DNA of 35,681 bases from Candidatus Bathyarchaeota archaeon. Its GTDB lineage: Archaea > Thermoproteota > Bathyarchaeia > TCS64. Shown in pieces: positions 6,954 through 27,602 of the stretch. Every line of letters starts with the position of its first letter. Position 1 is the stretch's first letter. Position numbers and translations under genes: made by a program. The notes below the pieces were generated by a model, which worked only from the letters and a program-made list of their open reading frames with translations, had not been told where the DNA came from and made no database searches. Where the stretch lies: positions 1 to 35,681 of the forward strand of contig JAFGHP010000057.1 in assembly GCA_016930055.1 (NCBI GenBank), in the 5' to 3' direction.

Positions 6954-7934
6954 ATGTTAAAATCAGTTATAGATAATGCTGAATTTCTAGAATTATATCG
7001 TTTAATGATTAGAATACGAACATATGAAACAACAATGAGAAGTCTTGCTAGAGAAGGTAAAGTTCCTGCAAGATTTGGCATGTATACTGGTCAAGAAGGA
7101 GTCGCAGTAGGTGTATCTGCGCATCTTAAAAAAGAAGACCAGATTGGTAGTACACACCGTCCAGTGGGGCACTTAATAGCGAAAGGCATAAACTTAAACA
7201 AACTTACTGCGGAATTATGTGCTAAATCAACAGGTTTCAACAAAGGTAAAGCTGGTTCTTATCACGTTTTTGATCCAGAATCTGGATGTTTAGGTGCAAA
7301 TGGGATAGTTGGTGCAAGTGTTCCAATGTGTGCTGGCTATGCATTAAGAAACCAAATTAAAAATGATGGATTAATCACGGTTTCTTATTTTGGTGAAGGA
7401 GCAAGTAATCAAGGAGGTGTTCTTGAAACCTTGAATTTAGCTGCTTGTTGGAACTTGCCAATTGTTTTTATATGTGAAAATAGTAGCCCAATTATTCAAA
7501 GAATGCTGGGTCACGAAATTGATTATCCCCAACTTACTATAGAAAATGTTTCAATTCGTGCAGATGGTTATGGTATACCTGGTTATACTTATAATGGATG
7601 GGATGTTGAAGAAGTTTATAGAGTCGCAGGAGTAGCGATTGAAAGAGCTAGATTGGGAAAAGGACCATCACTTCTTGAATTCAAAGTTCATCAATTTGAG
7701 GGAAATTTAGAAGGAAGATTGGAAGCAAACGAAAAAGACAGACCTTACTGTCCTATCGATTTTCTTACAAAAAAATTAAGAATAAAAGGAGTTTTAGACA
7801 AGGAGATCGAAGAAAAAATTAGATCTCAAGAAGTAGAGTTAGTTCAAAAAGCAGTAGACTTTGCTATATCAAGTCCTGAACCCGAAATTAGTGAGGCTTA
7901 TACTGATGTTTTTGGAGGTGCTTTTAATGTCTGA
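6954..7934 (+). CDS. Thiamine-dependent 2-oxoacid/acetoin dehydrogenase E1 component, alpha subunit
   Basis: E1 alpha decarboxylates a 2-oxoacid or cleaves acetoin on ThDP and passes the acyl group to a lipoyl E2. Family motifs are LGANGIVGASVPMCAGYAL and the ThDP motif GEGASNQGG (about residue 147) followed by LNLAACWNLPIVFICEN. The 326-aa length is normal. The loop that in many relatives reads HRGHGH is HRPVGH here, and after CEN the sequence (SSPIIQRMLGHE) departs from the common NNxYAIS form. It overlaps the beta subunit by 8 nt. The substrate cannot be assigned, and no E2 or E3 gene lies in the window. Confidence 0.85.
   Translation: MLKSVIDNAEFLELYRLMIRIRTYETTMRSLAREGKVPARFGMYTGQEGVAVGVSAHLKKEDQIGSTHRPVGHLIAKGINLNKLTAELCAKSTGFNKGKAGSYHVFDPESGCLGANGIVGASVPMCAGYALRNQIKNDGLITVSYFGEGASNQGGVLETLNLAACWNLPIVFICENSSPIIQRMLGHEIDYPQLTIENVSIRADGYGIPGYTYNGWDVEEVYRVAGVAIERARLGKGPSLLEFKVHQFEGNLEGRLEANEKDRPYCPIDFLTKKLRIKGVLDKEIEEKIRSQEVELVQKAVDFAISSPEPEISEAYTDVFGGAFNV
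7914..7920 (+). promoter_or_regulatory. Ribosome binding site that fixes the E1 beta start
   Basis: GGAGGTG inside the 3' end of the E1 alpha gene sits 6 nt before the ATG at 7927. It decides for MSERIITM rather than the TTG at 7861 offered by the ORF track, and indicates coupled translation. Confidence 0.75.
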
Positions 7935-8898
7935 ACGAATCATTACGATGGCTGAAGCCTTAAATGAAGCAATGTTTAGTGAGATGAATAAAAACCCAGA
8001 TATTATTTTGTTAGGTGAAAATGTTTCAAGTAGCTTTAGGGGACCTACTAAAGGACTAAAAGAAGCTTTTGGTAGAGAAAGAGTTAGAGATGCACCTATT
8101 TCTGAAACATCATTTATAGGTGCAGGAATTGGCGCAGCAATAACTGGTCTTAGACCAATAGTTGAGCTTATGCTTGTTGATTTTGGTTTAGTAGCTATGG
8201 ATCAAATATTAAATCAAATGGGAAAGACAACATACATGAGTGGAGGTATTGTTAACATCCCGTTAACTTTACGCGCAGTGATTGGCGCAGGTACAAGTTC
8301 AGGAGCAACTCATAGTGAGAGCCTATATTCTTTATTTGCTCATATGCCTGGAATAAAAGTGGTTATACCCAGTACCCCTTATGATGCTAAAGGTTTACTA
8401 ATAATGAGCATCAAAGAAAACTGTCCAAAAATCTTTCTAGAGCATAGATTACTATACAACTTAAAAGGGGTTGTACCTGTTGAGGATTATACAATTCCTT
8501 TAGGGACAGCTAAAACATGTCTTGAAGGAACGGATGTTACTATAGTTGCTTGTGGTTTAATGTTGCATGAATCTCTGAAAGCTGCAGAGCTGATGAAGAA
8601 TGAAATCGATGTCGAAATAATTGATCCACGTACAATATATCCCCTTGACGAAGATACTATCTTAAAGTCCTTAAAAAAGACTGGTAGGTTAATTGTGGTT
8701 GATGAAGATTACCGTTTCTGTGGATTTAGTGCCGAAATTGCAGCTCTTGCAGCAGAGAAAGCCTTTAAACATCTTAAAAACCCTGTACACAGATTAACCA
8801 CACCTAATATTCCTTTCCCGTTTAATCCTAGACTTGAAAGAGAATTATTACCTAACGCGAAAAAAATTGCAGACATTATTAAAAAAATTGTTCAATAA
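7927..8898 (+). CDS. Thiamine-dependent 2-oxoacid/acetoin dehydrogenase E1 component, beta subunit
   Basis: Partner of E1 alpha in an alpha2beta2 thiamine enzyme. From the chosen ATG the protein is 323 aa, the normal length. It begins MSERIITMAEALNEAM and shows the family's GENV, FGRERVRDAPISETSFIGAGIGAA and GAGTSSGATHSESLYSLFAHMPG stretches; the His of GATHSES is in the active-site region. The C-terminal transketolase domain follows (about 200-320: VEIIDPRTIYPLD and VDEDYRFCGFSAEIAA). It is followed by T-rich sequence that probably ends the operon. Confidence 0.9.
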   Translation: MSERIITMAEALNEAMFSEMNKNPDIILLGENVSSSFRGPTKGLKEAFGRERVRDAPISETSFIGAGIGAAITGLRPIVELMLVDFGLVAMDQILNQMGKTTYMSGGIVNIPLTLRAVIGAGTSSGATHSESLYSLFAHMPGIKVVIPSTPYDAKGLLIMSIKENCPKIFLEHRLLYNLKGVVPVEDYTIPLGTAKTCLEGTDVTIVACGLMLHESLKAAELMKNEIDVEIIDPRTIYPLDEDTILKSLKKTGRLIVVDEDYRFCGFSAEIAALAAEKAFKHLKNPVHRLTTPNIPFPFNPRLERELLPNAKKIADIIKKIVQ

Positions 8899-14737: not shown

Positions 14738-15331
14738 TTAAAATAAGACTAGTCCTCTCATGTAAAGACTCATTTGCAACCATGTAAGCATTGTACTAAT
14801 TATTGCTCCTGCTGTAACTTGCATAATCGTATGTGCTTTTAATTCAACTCTTGCCCAGGCAACAGGAATAACAAAAAGGAATAGTGGAATCATAGTTAAA
14901 CCTAATAAATACACTAGTGCAGTTACTGGTCCAGTTATGCCTGAAGCGTGTATACTAATTTTCCATTTAAAAGTTATTATAGTTAATACTAAACTATTAA
15001 CGAAGTAACAGGTCATTAATGCGGTGACCATTATTGGAGCTTCAACCCAAAAGAGTGAAAGTGAACCCATTAAGTAAAATAAACTTGTCCAAAGAAACGG
15101 AATAAAACGTTGTTCTTTATTGTATGCATAAAAATCTTCAATTAAGTTTAGTTTTAAAAGTATGCCTACCATTATTAATGGTAAAACACACCCAAATAAA
15201 CTAGTTATTCCTATTAATAATGGTGTTTTAGGTGTACTTTGTCCTAATATTAAAAGTATAAATGTTATCATGGTAATTAAAGGTGCGTTTAATGCCGCAG
15301 ATACCACGGACGCAATTCTTTTTTTGTTCAA
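14738..15331 (-). CDS. PAP2-like membrane phosphatase
   Basis: A 197-residue protein with about six membrane helices. Degenerate PAP2 (lipid phosphatase) motifs occur in order: NKEQRFIPF for the first, SIHASGITG for PSGH, and ARVELKAHTIMQVTAG matching the R-x5-H of the third. The usual final Asp is not obvious. Such divergent forms are known among bacterial and archaeal PAP2 proteins. It probably acts on prenyl or lipid phosphates, which is inference. It lies downstream of the iscSU operon on the same strand but separated by about 36 nt. Confidence 0.65.
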   Translation of the reverse strand: MNKKRIASVVSAALNAPLITMITFILLILGQSTPKTPLLIGITSLFGCVLPLIMVGILLKLNLIEDFYAYNKEQRFIPFLWTSLFYLMGSLSLFWVEAPIMVTALMTCYFVNSLVLTIITFKWKISIHASGITGPVTALVYLLGLTMIPLFLFVIPVAWARVELKAHTIMQVTAGAIISTMLTWLQMSLYMRGLVLF

Positions 15332-15367: not shown

Positions 15368-15511
15368 TTACTTACTGCTTTTTAACACTTGTCTTTTTAA
15401 GTGTTCACAGCAACATATTTTTATACCTTTTTCATTTTTACCAACCATTAACTCGCATTCTTCTGCTGTTGATACTATACACATAGGACATTTTTCTATA
15501 CTTTCTTTCAT
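15368..15511 (-). CDS. 47-residue Cys-rich protein coupled to iscU (missed by the ORF track)
   Basis: The sequence reads MKESIEKCPMCIVSTAEE and continues through ICCCEHLKRQ to a TAA. Six cysteines occur: Cys8 and Cys11 (CPMC), Cys19, and Cys33-35 followed by Glu-His. The ATG overlaps the iscU TGA as ATGA, and a strong Shine-Dalgarno sequence AAGGAGAT lies about 6 nt upstream inside iscU. These features argue for a real gene. The cysteines suggest a zinc or Fe-S binding protein or a persulfide carrier for IscSU. I know no family that matches. Confidence 0.7.
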   Translation of the reverse strand: MKESIEKCPMCIVSTAEECELMVGKNEKGIKICCCEHLKRQVLKSSK

Positions 15512-15885
15512 TTTTTTATCTCCTTTTTTTCTTTAAAATTCTTTATCGCTTCATGAAGAGCGTCTGCTGCAAGATTACTGCAATGCATTTTTACAGGTGG
15601 AAGCCCATCTAAAGCATCAGCAACACTTTGACGCGTTATGTCCATTGCTTCCTCAAGTGTTTTACCTTTAGCTAATTCAGTTGTCATGCTACTTGTAGCA
15701 ATTGCTGCTCCACATCCATATGTTTTAAATTTTATGTCTTCGATGTGGTTATCTTTAACTTTAATGTACATGGTCATCATGTCGCCACATACTGGATTAC
15801 CGACGCTACCGATTCCATCTGCGTTTTTAATTTCACCAACATTTCTAGGATTTTTAAAGTGATCTAATACTTTGTCACTATACAT
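15508..15885 (-). CDS. iscU: Iron-sulfur cluster scaffold IscU
   Basis: Scaffold on which Fe-S clusters are built before transfer. All three ligand cysteines are present: Cys33 (GNPVCGD), Cys58 (YGCGAA) and Cys102 (MHCS), together with Asp35 and His101. 125 aa is the standard length. It follows iscS with no gap, preceded by GAGGAG within the iscS end, and its stop overlaps the start of the 47-residue Cys-rich ORF. The three genes form an operon with no IscA, HscAB or ferredoxin. Confidence 0.95.
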   Translation of the reverse strand: MYSDKVLDHFKNPRNVGEIKNADGIGSVGNPVCGDMMTMYIKVKDNHIEDIKFKTYGCGAAIATSSMTTELAKGKTLEEAMDITRQSVADALDGLPPVKMHCSNLAADALHEAIKNFKEKKEIKK

Positions 15886-17052
15886 TTATTTTAGCTCCTC
15901 TGGGGTAATTGGGGACATTGCTCTGAGCTTTTTTACTATAGCTGGGAGTTTTGCCATAATGTAATCTACTTGCTCATTATTATTACCTTTTCCAAGTGTA
16001 AATACTAGGCTACCATGAGCTTCTTCATGTTTTAAACCTAAAGCAAGTAAGCAGTGACTAGGTTCAAGTGTTTTTGCTGCACAAGCAGAACCTGTACCAA
16101 GCTGGATGCCTTCTTGATCTAAACTAAGGATTAGAGCTTCCCCCTCAATATAGTTGAATCTAATATTTGCATTATTTGATAACCTTTTAAGAGGATGGCC
16201 ACTTAAATAAGATTCTGGTATAGTGCTAGTAATTCTTTCTATTAATTCGTCTCTAATTTTTTCAAGTCTTGTGGTTTCTTTAAACATATCTTTTTTAATG
16301 ATTTCTGCTGCTGCACCAAAACCAACTATACCAGGTGTATTTTCGGTTCCGCTTCTTAATCCTTGTTCTTGTCCACCTCCAATAATTATTGGACGTACAC
16401 GCAGACCTTTCTTTATATAAAGCGCTCCTACTCCTTTAGGTCCATATATATCATTACTACTTAATGTTAAAAAATCAATGTTTAGGTCTTTTACATCTAT
16501 CTCCATTTTCCCTAATGCAGCAGTTGCATCTGAATGTATGTAGGATCCTTTCTTATGAGCAATTTCAGAAGCTTCTTTAACAGGTTGAATTGTTCCAATT
16601 TCTCCATTAGCAACCATTACGCTAGTAATAACTGTCTTTTCATTAACGAGTTCTTCAAATTTATCTAACATAATTATCCCACTCGAATCTACTGGACATT
16701 GGAACATCTCAAAATTTTGTTTAGTTAATTCTTTGCAAATATTTATAGTACTGATATGTTCTATTGCCGTTGTTACAATCCTGTTACCTTTATTTTTGTA
16801 ACGAATGGCACCTCCAATAATAGCTAAATTTGATGCCTCTGTAGCACTACTAGTAAAAATAATTTCGGAAGGTTCAGAATTTATGAGAGCAGCGATTTGT
16901 TCTCTTGCTTTATTTATCGCTTTTAATGCTTTGAAACCTTCACTATGAAAACTGCTTGGATTACCAACATGTTCATTAAAGAAGGGTAGCATTTCTTTAA
17001 TTACACGTGGATCTACATTAGAACCCGAAGCATAATCCATGTAGACTTTCAT
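15886..17052 (-). CDS. iscS: IscS/NifS-family protein lacking the PLP-binding lysine
   Basis: By fold this is a class V cysteine desulfurase of normal length (388 aa). TEASNLAI, EH (His99), HSDATAALGK (Asp175) and GTGSACAAKTLEPS with the mobile-loop Cys324 are all kept. The lysine that should bind PLP is missing: the usual HK before xYGPKG reads ND (Asn200-Asp201). The same kind of Lys-to-Asp change is known in Archaeoglobus fulgidus IscS, which is inactive as a desulfurase but lends a Cys ligand to the cluster on IscU. A similar non-desulfurase role is likely here. It is the first gene of the iscS-iscU-Cys-rich operon. Confidence 0.9.
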   Translation of the reverse strand: MKVYMDYASGSNVDPRVIKEMLPFFNEHVGNPSSFHSEGFKALKAINKAREQIAALINSEPSEIIFTSSATEASNLAIIGGAIRYKNKGNRIVTTAIEHISTINICKELTKQNFEMFQCPVDSSGIIMLDKFEELVNEKTVITSVMVANGEIGTIQPVKEASEIAHKKGSYIHSDATAALGKMEIDVKDLNIDFLTLSSNDIYGPKGVGALYIKKGLRVRPIIIGGGQEQGLRSGTENTPGIVGFGAAAEIIKKDMFKETTRLEKIRDELIERITSTIPESYLSGHPLKRLSNNANIRFNYIEGEALILSLDQEGIQLGTGSACAAKTLEPSHCLLALGLKHEEAHGSLVFTLGKGNNNEQVDYIMAKLPAIVKKLRAMSPITPEELK

Positions 17053-26333: not shown

Positions 26334-26426
26334 CTTAGTATATTGATTTGTATAGTTATAAATAAGGGCAAGTGAAAATATCCTTTAACTTCTTATTCTT
26401 ATAATGTAATTATTCATAGATTGAAA

Positions 26427-27602
26427 ATGGGCCTAAAACTGAGGGACGAGTTTCCTTTATGTAAAAAGTATATTTATTTTGATTGTGCTGCACAAGGTGC
26501 AATGCCTCTTACGACAATAAAAACAATTCAAGAATATGAAATGGATTTAGTAGCTTTGTATAAAGCAGAAACACCTTGGAAAGATTCGTTGAAAAAATGG
26601 GAAGAAAAACGATCTAATTCTAAGAAATTATTTGCAGAGATTATTGGGTGTCAATCTGAAGAAGTTGCTTTTGTTAGTAATGCTACTAATGGGTTAAACA
26701 CAATTTTTGGTATGATTCCAATCAAGAGAGGACAGAATGTTGTAACAACTGATATGGAATTTCCTATGTGCAATGCATTAGTAAATAGTCAAAGACGTAA
26801 AGGTGCTGAACCACGTTTTATTAAGAGTAAAGATGGTATAGTAACTCTTGAACAATTTGAGAAAACCGTAGACGATAAAACTGCAGTTGTTATGGTGGAT
26901 CATCCTACTTGGTTTAATGGCTACACTTATGATTTGAAAGCTCTAAGTGAATTAGCTCACAATCACGGTGCTAAACTTGTAATTGATGTTACACAAGGTG
27001 TTGGAAGCATTAATTGGGAAGCTAAAAAATGGGGTGTAGATTTTGCAGCTACTAGTACTTATAAATGGCTTATGGGTGGACCTTATTCTCAATCTGCTGG
27101 CTTTATGTATGCTAATAAAGAATATTTCGATGACTATCTACCTCCTGTTGTAAGTGCCTCAGCATATGAATTAACCCCTAATAAACAATCAAAAAACTCT
27201 GTATATTTCACCTATAATGTCAAATCTAAAAAAGGAATTAACCGATTTGAAGTTTATAACCGTTCAGAAATCGCTTACGTAGCTGTTGAAAATTCAATGA
27301 AGCTTATTTTGAGTCATGGAAAGAAAGAAGTTGAGAGACAAGTTAAGGATGTAGATAATGCTATAGTTAATGGTGCCTTAGAAGCTGGTTATGTTTTAGG
27401 TACTCCTGAAGATGAGTCTCAAAGAATGTATGTAAGTCTTAAAGTACCTGAACCTGAAAAAATTCCAGGTAAACTCTATGAACATGGAGTTATAGCGAGT
27501 TATCGTGTTGGCGGTCTCCGAATTTCTCCGCATTTTTATAATACTGTTGATGAAGCTGAGAAGTTTATCTCTATTCTGAAAAAGGTAGCTCCTATTAACT
27601 AA
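26427..27602 (+). CDS. Class V PLP-dependent aminotransferase
   Basis: A PLP enzyme of the cysteine desulfurase/isopenicillin-N-epimerase superfamily. From ATG 26427 it has 391 aa; the track adds a TTG two codons earlier. The PLP lysine is in TSTYKWLMGGP, with Asp of LVIDVTQGVG and His of VDHPTWFNGY nearby, so this one keeps the lysine that IscS lacks. No C-terminal SAC-type cysteine loop is seen, so a desulfurase role is unlikely; amino acid cleavage or transamination is more probable. It is followed by purD 47 nt later. Confidence 0.85.
   Translation: MGLKLRDEFPLCKKYIYFDCAAQGAMPLTTIKTIQEYEMDLVALYKAETPWKDSLKKWEEKRSNSKKLFAEIIGCQSEEVAFVSNATNGLNTIFGMIPIKRGQNVVTTDMEFPMCNALVNSQRRKGAEPRFIKSKDGIVTLEQFEKTVDDKTAVVMVDHPTWFNGYTYDLKALSELAHNHGAKLVIDVTQGVGSINWEAKKWGVDFAATSTYKWLMGGPYSQSAGFMYANKEYFDDYLPPVVSASAYELTPNKQSKNSVYFTYNVKSKKGINRFEVYNRSEIAYVAVENSMKLILSHGKKEVERQVKDVDNAIVNGALEAGYVLGTPEDESQRMYVSLKVPEPEKIPGKLYEHGVIASYRVGGLRISPHFYNTVDEAEKFISILKKVAPIN

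Follow-up and report, generated by a model that had tools for sequence, protein, structure and literature searches.

The IscS-like protein encoded in the window (the whole 35,681-nucleotide stretch analyzed here) is, on the basis of its sequence, an addition to the lysine-less IscS proteins already known as the A. fulgidus type, with which it shares an Asp at the lysine position, a retained cysteine, membership of a single clade, and an adjacent IscU. Genes specifying such acid-type IscS proteins are linked to tusA and dsrE, a new result which makes the group an ISC variant whose source of sulfur can be tested.

Gene organization and predicted fold of the window IscS

The gene which the initial annotation had placed at positions 15886 to 17052 is a genuine ORF, although its strand is to be given as minus: the plus strand across this interval is full of stops, and the coding sequence runs from 17052 to 15886. 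The relevant features are as follows.

15886 to 17052, minus strand: iscS, acid-type IscS-like protein of 388 amino acids with a desulfurase fold, predicted to be dead (ORF, model, and PDB match)
16519 to 16521, minus strand: codon of Ala178, which replaces Gln183 of E. coli IscS
16450 to 16455, minus strand: codons of Asn200 (16453 to 16455) and Asp201 (16450 to 16452), which replace His205-Lys206 (PLP Schiff-base lysine) of E. coli IscS
16081 to 16083, minus strand: codon of Cys324, the mobile-loop cysteine, equivalent to Cys321 of A. fulgidus IscS
16003 to 16005, minus strand: codon of Val350, which replaces the Arg of the HGSLR motif (SSIRF in E. coli; the putative substrate-carboxylate Arg)
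15508 to 15885, minus strand: iscU, scaffold protein of 125 amino acids with Cys33, Asp35, Cys58, and Cys102 present, starting right after the iscS stop
14738 to 15331, minus strand: 197-amino-acid hydrophobic protein, syntenic downstream of iscS-iscU in genomes G002, G003, G005, and G006

The iscS product matches Pfam family Aminotran_5 (PF00266) with 247 bits, placing it among the class V aminotransferases of fold-type I, and its predicted model (mean pLDDT of 91) is most similar to the A. fulgidus IscS-IscU structure 4EB5 (TM score of 0.94; 53% identity). The top solved structures are all of A. fulgidus origin (4EB5, 4HVK, 4R5F, and 4EB7; TM scores of 0.93 to 0.95), while TM scores of 0.92 to 0.95 were obtained against 4EB5 and E. 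coli IscS. The protein nevertheless falls below all NCBIfam equivalog cut-offs for desulfurases, scoring 475.2 against 530.75 for TIGR03402 and 392.4 against 643.2 for TIGR02006.

The IscU-type partner reported in the initial annotation is complete and adjoins iscS, exceeding the cut-off of NCBIfam NifU_clost (214.5 bits versus 187.9), and no second IscU was found in the genome from which the window derives, an archaeal MAG of 1.79 Mb and 94% completeness. The organism is a bathyarchaeon, since G006, which belongs to the same family, encodes an IscS identical to one from a named Bathyarchaeota MAG (L026/L048). The 197-amino-acid hydrophobic protein returned no match in a Pfam search, and its homologues display 56 to 70% identity. 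Elsewhere in the window, positions 26421 to 27602 harbor a class V aminotransferase-like gene which retains the lysine (STYKWLMGG) and which, by score, is neither IscS nor SufS.

Active site of the window IscS

The active-site motif reads LSSNDIYGPKGVGAL, in which Asn200-Asp201 occupies the place of the PLP-binding His-Lys pair. This replacement had been recognized previously and is confirmed here, but the extent of the loss was understated, as the Gln that contacts PLP and the HGSLR Arg are also missing. Alignment with E. coli IscS, the numbering of which was verified at 404/404 residues against 1p3w, identified four replacements (H205 to N200, K206 to D201, Q183 to A178, and N155 to G150), while T76 (T71), H104 (H99), D180 (D175), S203 (S198), T243 (T236), and C328 (C324) are retained. 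We take the Gln183 position to be the PLP hydroxyl contact, and the HGSLR Arg to be the holder of the substrate carboxylate, in cysteine desulfurases generally. Of the residues expected in a catalytic desulfurase, the window protein therefore retains the persulfide cysteine of the loop and lacks the PLP lysine, the Gln, and the Arg.

The equivalence to A. fulgidus IscS that had been suggested is exact: the proteins share an identical SSNDIYGPKGVGAL motif (4EB5 and 4HVK; 4R5F represents the D199K mutant) and, although they belong to different lineages, both have lost the Gln and Arg residues, have kept the Cys, and are partnered by IscU. A. fulgidus IscS is cited in PMC7585200 as being devoid of desulfurase activity and as ligating the cluster through its Cys, and the crystal structure of the A. 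fulgidus IscS-IscU complex shows Cys321 as a ligand of the IscU-bound cluster (PMC9769115). For the A. fulgidus protein both the inactivity and the [2Fe-2S] ligation have been measured, whereas for the window IscS they are predicted. Methanosarcina acetivorans IscS1, which is accompanied by IscU1, is described as similarly lacking the catalytic lysine (PMC7585200), a likeness known from that description.

Conservation and selection across the acid-type clade

Among 143 distinct IscS-type homologues, 45 carry an acidic residue at the lysine position (Asp in 43 and Glu in 2), and in all 45 of these the Gln and the HGSLR Arg are absent and the loop Cys is present, in agreement with the earlier observation that Cys324 is intact. 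Normal lysine-type sequences possess Lys, Gln, and Arg together in 82 of 84 cases, the other two being without the Gln alone, such that the Arg is present in 84/84. The remaining homologues comprise 12 sequences of an “NHE” type, in which the Lys is kept and the Gln and Arg are not, and two with other losses.

A tree constructed without the active-site columns separated 30 acid-type sequences from 44 others on one branch (ultrafast bootstrap of 100; SH-aLRT of 99.6), and the alternative of many independent lysine losses within the acid type was consequently rejected. The clade includes A. fulgidus IscS and representatives of the Bathyarchaeota, Hadesarchaea, other Thermoproteota, Methanocellales, Methanomicrobiaceae, and Thermoplasmatota, as well as one Nitrospinota MAG. 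The acid is constant even where the residue beside it varies (Asn, Trp, or Gly), and the same acid residue was found in same-genus and same-family genomes of the window organism; this, coupled with its occurrence in 45/45 acid-type sequences, argues against a sequencing slip.

Close acid-type pairs exhibited dN/dS values of 0.02 to 0.13. Since the catalytic residues are lost while the Cys is invariant and dN/dS is low, the catalytic site appears to have been dismantled in a protein which is still under selection. The protein keeps its contacts to the phosphate, ring, and pyridinium nitrogen of PLP, and four further positions (R84, S101, N104, and T328), some of which adjoin the PLP-stacking His in sequence, are fixed at 100% each in the acid clade, which indicates a pocket that has been remodelled and conserved rather than one in decay. 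These findings suggest that acid-type IscS represents an ancient archaeal paralogue clade which stopped taking sulfur from cysteine. The prior proposal of selection for a non-desulfurase role is accordingly supported by the existence of one conserved clade, purifying selection, the invariant Cys, and the adjacent IscU.

Three acid-type proteins (G147:C20 [L213], G105:C1:1146280 [L225], and G117:C16 [L215]) exceed the curated cut-off of TIGR03402, “cysteine desulfurase NifS,” and automatic annotation would therefore label them as active desulfurases. Two isolated lysine losses, L093 and L125, are separate from the acid clade; the latter (L125:6001-7152), a Rokuibacteriota IscS, has Leu at the lysine position with the Gln and Arg kept, and may reflect a recent loss or an error.

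Linkage of acid-type iscS to tusA and dsrE

A tusA gene is located at most 1 kb upstream of iscS, on the same strand, at 32 of 41 acid-type loci as opposed to 0 of 80 lysine-type loci (Fisher test, 1.9e-21, uncorrected for kinship), these counts being restricted to loci having at least 900 nt of upstream sequence, including among the lysine-type loci paralogues from genomes that also carry the acid type, and being phylogenetically non-independent, as they concern one clade with a minimum of three linkage changes among 28 tips. Similarly, a DsrE-family gene is present within 3 kb at 16/41 acid-type and 0/80 lysine-type loci. Pfam scores for these neighbors were 77 to 86 bits (TusA) and 68.6 bits (DsrE), and the gene orders observed were tusA-iscS-iscU, tusA-dsrE-iscS-iscU, dsrE-tusA-iscS-iscU, and tusA-iscS-iscU-dsrE. 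TusA is encoded by 40/40 acid-type genomes searched, although tusA is non-adjacent at about a quarter of acid-type loci.

The gene directly 3′ of acid-type iscS is iscU in 40/44 cases, with a median gap of 5 nt. In L051, L054, and L065 iscU does not follow immediately; the L054 contig stops 768 nt downstream of iscS, and iscS of L051 is followed by what resembles, by eye, an iron-permease ORF. Just after iscU, L053 and L248 harbor a conserved 57-amino-acid protein with two CxxC-type motifs, which by eye is metal binding and TRASH-like.

Directly upstream of iscS, no tusA is present in the window genome, while the arrangement is intact in G002 and G003 (members of the same genus), in which the order is dipeptidase, 238-amino-acid protein, tusA, iscS, iscU, and the 197-amino-acid hydrophobic protein, with a gene for a flavodiiron protein (FprA) on the opposite strand. 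In the window genome, the dipeptidase, 238-amino-acid protein, and tusA genes lie on contig C104 beside proS, and iscS, iscU, and the 197-amino-acid protein gene lie in the window. The window genome thus carries the same tusA-iscS-iscU block, split between tusA and iscS, and it is for this reason that the link is invisible from the window. The only DsrE match found in this genome is marginal (24.9 bits). The 238-amino-acid protein (L237:9962-10678; homologues in L238, L239, and L241) is encoded directly upstream of tusA in the genus and family and has no Pfam match; L052 has an ORF resembling it, a likeness noted without alignment, which separates iscS from iscU and runs on the opposite strand (7240-7971).

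The IscS of a Clostridia MAG (L093:3532-6006) displays replacement of the Lys by Gln and of the Arg by Leu, and its gene forms part of an iscS-iscU-dsrE-tusA arrangement beside rubrerythrin-type genes; this lysine loss is independent of that of the archaeal clade. The “NHE” proteins (L040 to L047, L168, L169, L172, and L173; e.g., L173:2615-3835) form one clade with a VNHEIG motif and an adjacent IscU, and retain the lysine with Gln183 replaced by Asp and the HGSLR Arg by Leu. Their loci carry dsrE-tusA directly upstream in L040, L041, and L047 and sufS in the same cluster in L173 and, as judged by coordinates, in G224, G295, and G307, and these proteins are possibly also noncanonical or externally fed. 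In a literature search that covered papers other than the key A. fulgidus ones, no statement was found that connects lysine-less IscS with operons containing TusA or DsrE.

Sulfur source for the IscU scaffold

Targeted searches of the window genome identified a SufS on contig C102 in which the Lys, Gln, Cys, and Arg are all present (SGHK, DGAQ, RSGHHC, and NVRAS motifs), its TIGR01979 score of 448 bits being slightly below the cut-off of 475.1. The search for another true desulfurase that had been recommended thus returned a canonical SufS, and the idea that the organism possesses no true desulfurase was rejected. SmsC- and SmsB-like genes are located on contig C45. In a census covering the phylum of the window organism (299 genomes) and 80 named loci, a lysine-type desulfurase was detected in 24 of 26 acid-type genomes of good quality (completeness of 90% or more, contamination of 5% or less), this being SufS in 19 and a lysine-type IscS in 5, of which three were read directly and two were deduced from near-identical matches. 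In G012 and G117 (95% complete), no other desulfurase with both the Lys and the loop Cys was found, which missing sequence may explain. The coexistence of SufS with a dead IscS means that the latter does not imply a sulfide-only economy; the earlier suggestion that sulfide is the direct sulfur source is therefore not established and is not needed.

The presence of a tusA partner, often together with dsrE, suggests instead that sulfur is delivered as persulfide. It is proposed, as a reading to which we give an even chance, that acid-type IscS functions as a platform for docking, where IscU would receive its sulfur from a TusA persulfide relay and not from IscS-bound cysteine. TusA would obtain its sulfur from a DsrE-family protein, SufS, or a rhodanese, or else from sulfide or polysulfide, and would hand its persulfide to IscU on the platform, probably via Cys324, which may additionally coordinate the nascent [2Fe-2S] cluster as a fourth ligand in the manner of A. 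fulgidus Cys321. Sulfide can persulfurate DsrE in vitro (PMC3397948), and the sulfur reaching DsrE/TusA could ultimately stem from sulfide, which could alternatively react directly with Fe-IscU. The platform is favored by the joint loss of the catalytic residues, the single clade, the purifying selection, the adjoining IscU, and the tusA linkage, as well as by the independent Clostridia case, in which lysine loss is likewise accompanied by dsrE-tusA. E. coli IscS, a hub for TusA and IscU, shares its fold, partner types, and mobile-loop Cys with the window protein, and in the E. coli complex IscS Cys328 lies 4 Å from TusA Cys19 (PMC11302665). However, in E. coli IscS is a working catalyst from which sulfur passes on to TusA, and TusA and IscU dock on it at different, competing sites (PMC2854127, PMC11302665), both of which points argue against the platform; as catalysis is lost in the acid type, the flow from IscS to TusA would have to be reversed. 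Conservation specific to the acid clade was sought at the positions that correspond to the TusA footprint on E. coli IscS and was not found. Also weighing against the platform are the non-adjacent tusA of the window genome and of about a quarter of acid-type loci, the marginal DsrE match, and the phylogenetic non-independence of the linkage counts.

A possible, if doubtful, alternative is that sulfide reacts directly with Fe-IscU, as modeled for A. fulgidus, with the dead IscS lending only the Cys324 ligand and TusA serving tRNA thiolation or molybdopterin synthesis. The inactive, cluster-ligating A. fulgidus protein bears the same change (PMC9769115 and PMC7585200), IscU can be supplied by H2S in E. 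coli lacking functional iscS, an effect that requires IscU (PMC13015791), and the SMS system, to which the SmsCB-like genes of the window genome are related by similarity, can use sulfide (PMC12192291); yet this model leaves unexplained why tusA, and often dsrE, is linked to the acid type and not to the lysine type, and a canonical SufS is present. It is unlikely, in our estimation, that cysteine remains the source through SufS acting in trans, either via TusA or directly on Cys324 and thence to IscU, with catalysis and docking divided between two proteins. This possibility overlaps the platform proposal, in which the charger of TusA is left free, and it agrees with the distribution of SufS and lysine-type IscS among the good acid-type genomes and with the sufS genes clustered at several loci of the related, Arg-less “NHE” type; in the window genome, however, sufS is not linked to the operon of the acid type, and no such enzyme was found in G012 and G117, though their incompleteness can explain this.

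We attach little probability to a PLP- or PMP-dependent activity on another substrate without a Schiff-base lysine. The retained cofactor contacts, the pocket's own conserved residues, and the PLP contained in the A. fulgidus crystal (PMC9769115) would suit such an enzyme, but the Arg for the amino-acid carboxylate is absent in every member and no other enzyme gene is linked consistently. The missing catalytic residue might also be ascribed to a decaying pseudogene or an assembly error, an explanation that we consider refuted by the intact ORF, the single clade extending over several phyla, the low dN/dS, the invariant Cys, and the same residue in related genomes.

Implications for ISC systems of anaerobes

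The window unit resembles the minimal ISC system (MIS) in consisting of IscS and IscU only, with no HscA, HscB, or ferredoxin gene alongside. The MIS is defined as including a cysteine desulfurase (PMC12192291), and the window unit, in which both genes are present and the desulfurase residues are absent, therefore falls outside that definition. More broadly, a desulfurase-free IscS-IscU system fed by TusA/DsrE, with a noncatalytic IscS and with TusA as the Fe-S sulfur donor, may operate in anaerobic archaea and, independently, in a lineage of Clostridia, a generalization which we advance tentatively and rate somewhat short of an even prospect. The whole acid-type clade would be mislabeled by database names like “cysteine desulfurase NifS.” Ever since the crystal structures were obtained, it has been a puzzle how an A. 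fulgidus-type IscS that releases no sulfur contributes to Fe-S assembly, and the fact that tusA and dsrE accompany precisely the lysine-less IscS, and not the lysine type, offers a concrete, testable sulfur supply. If the proposal is true, the usual step between IscS and TusA would be reversed, and the ISC scaffold would run without a desulfurase of its own in these anaerobes.
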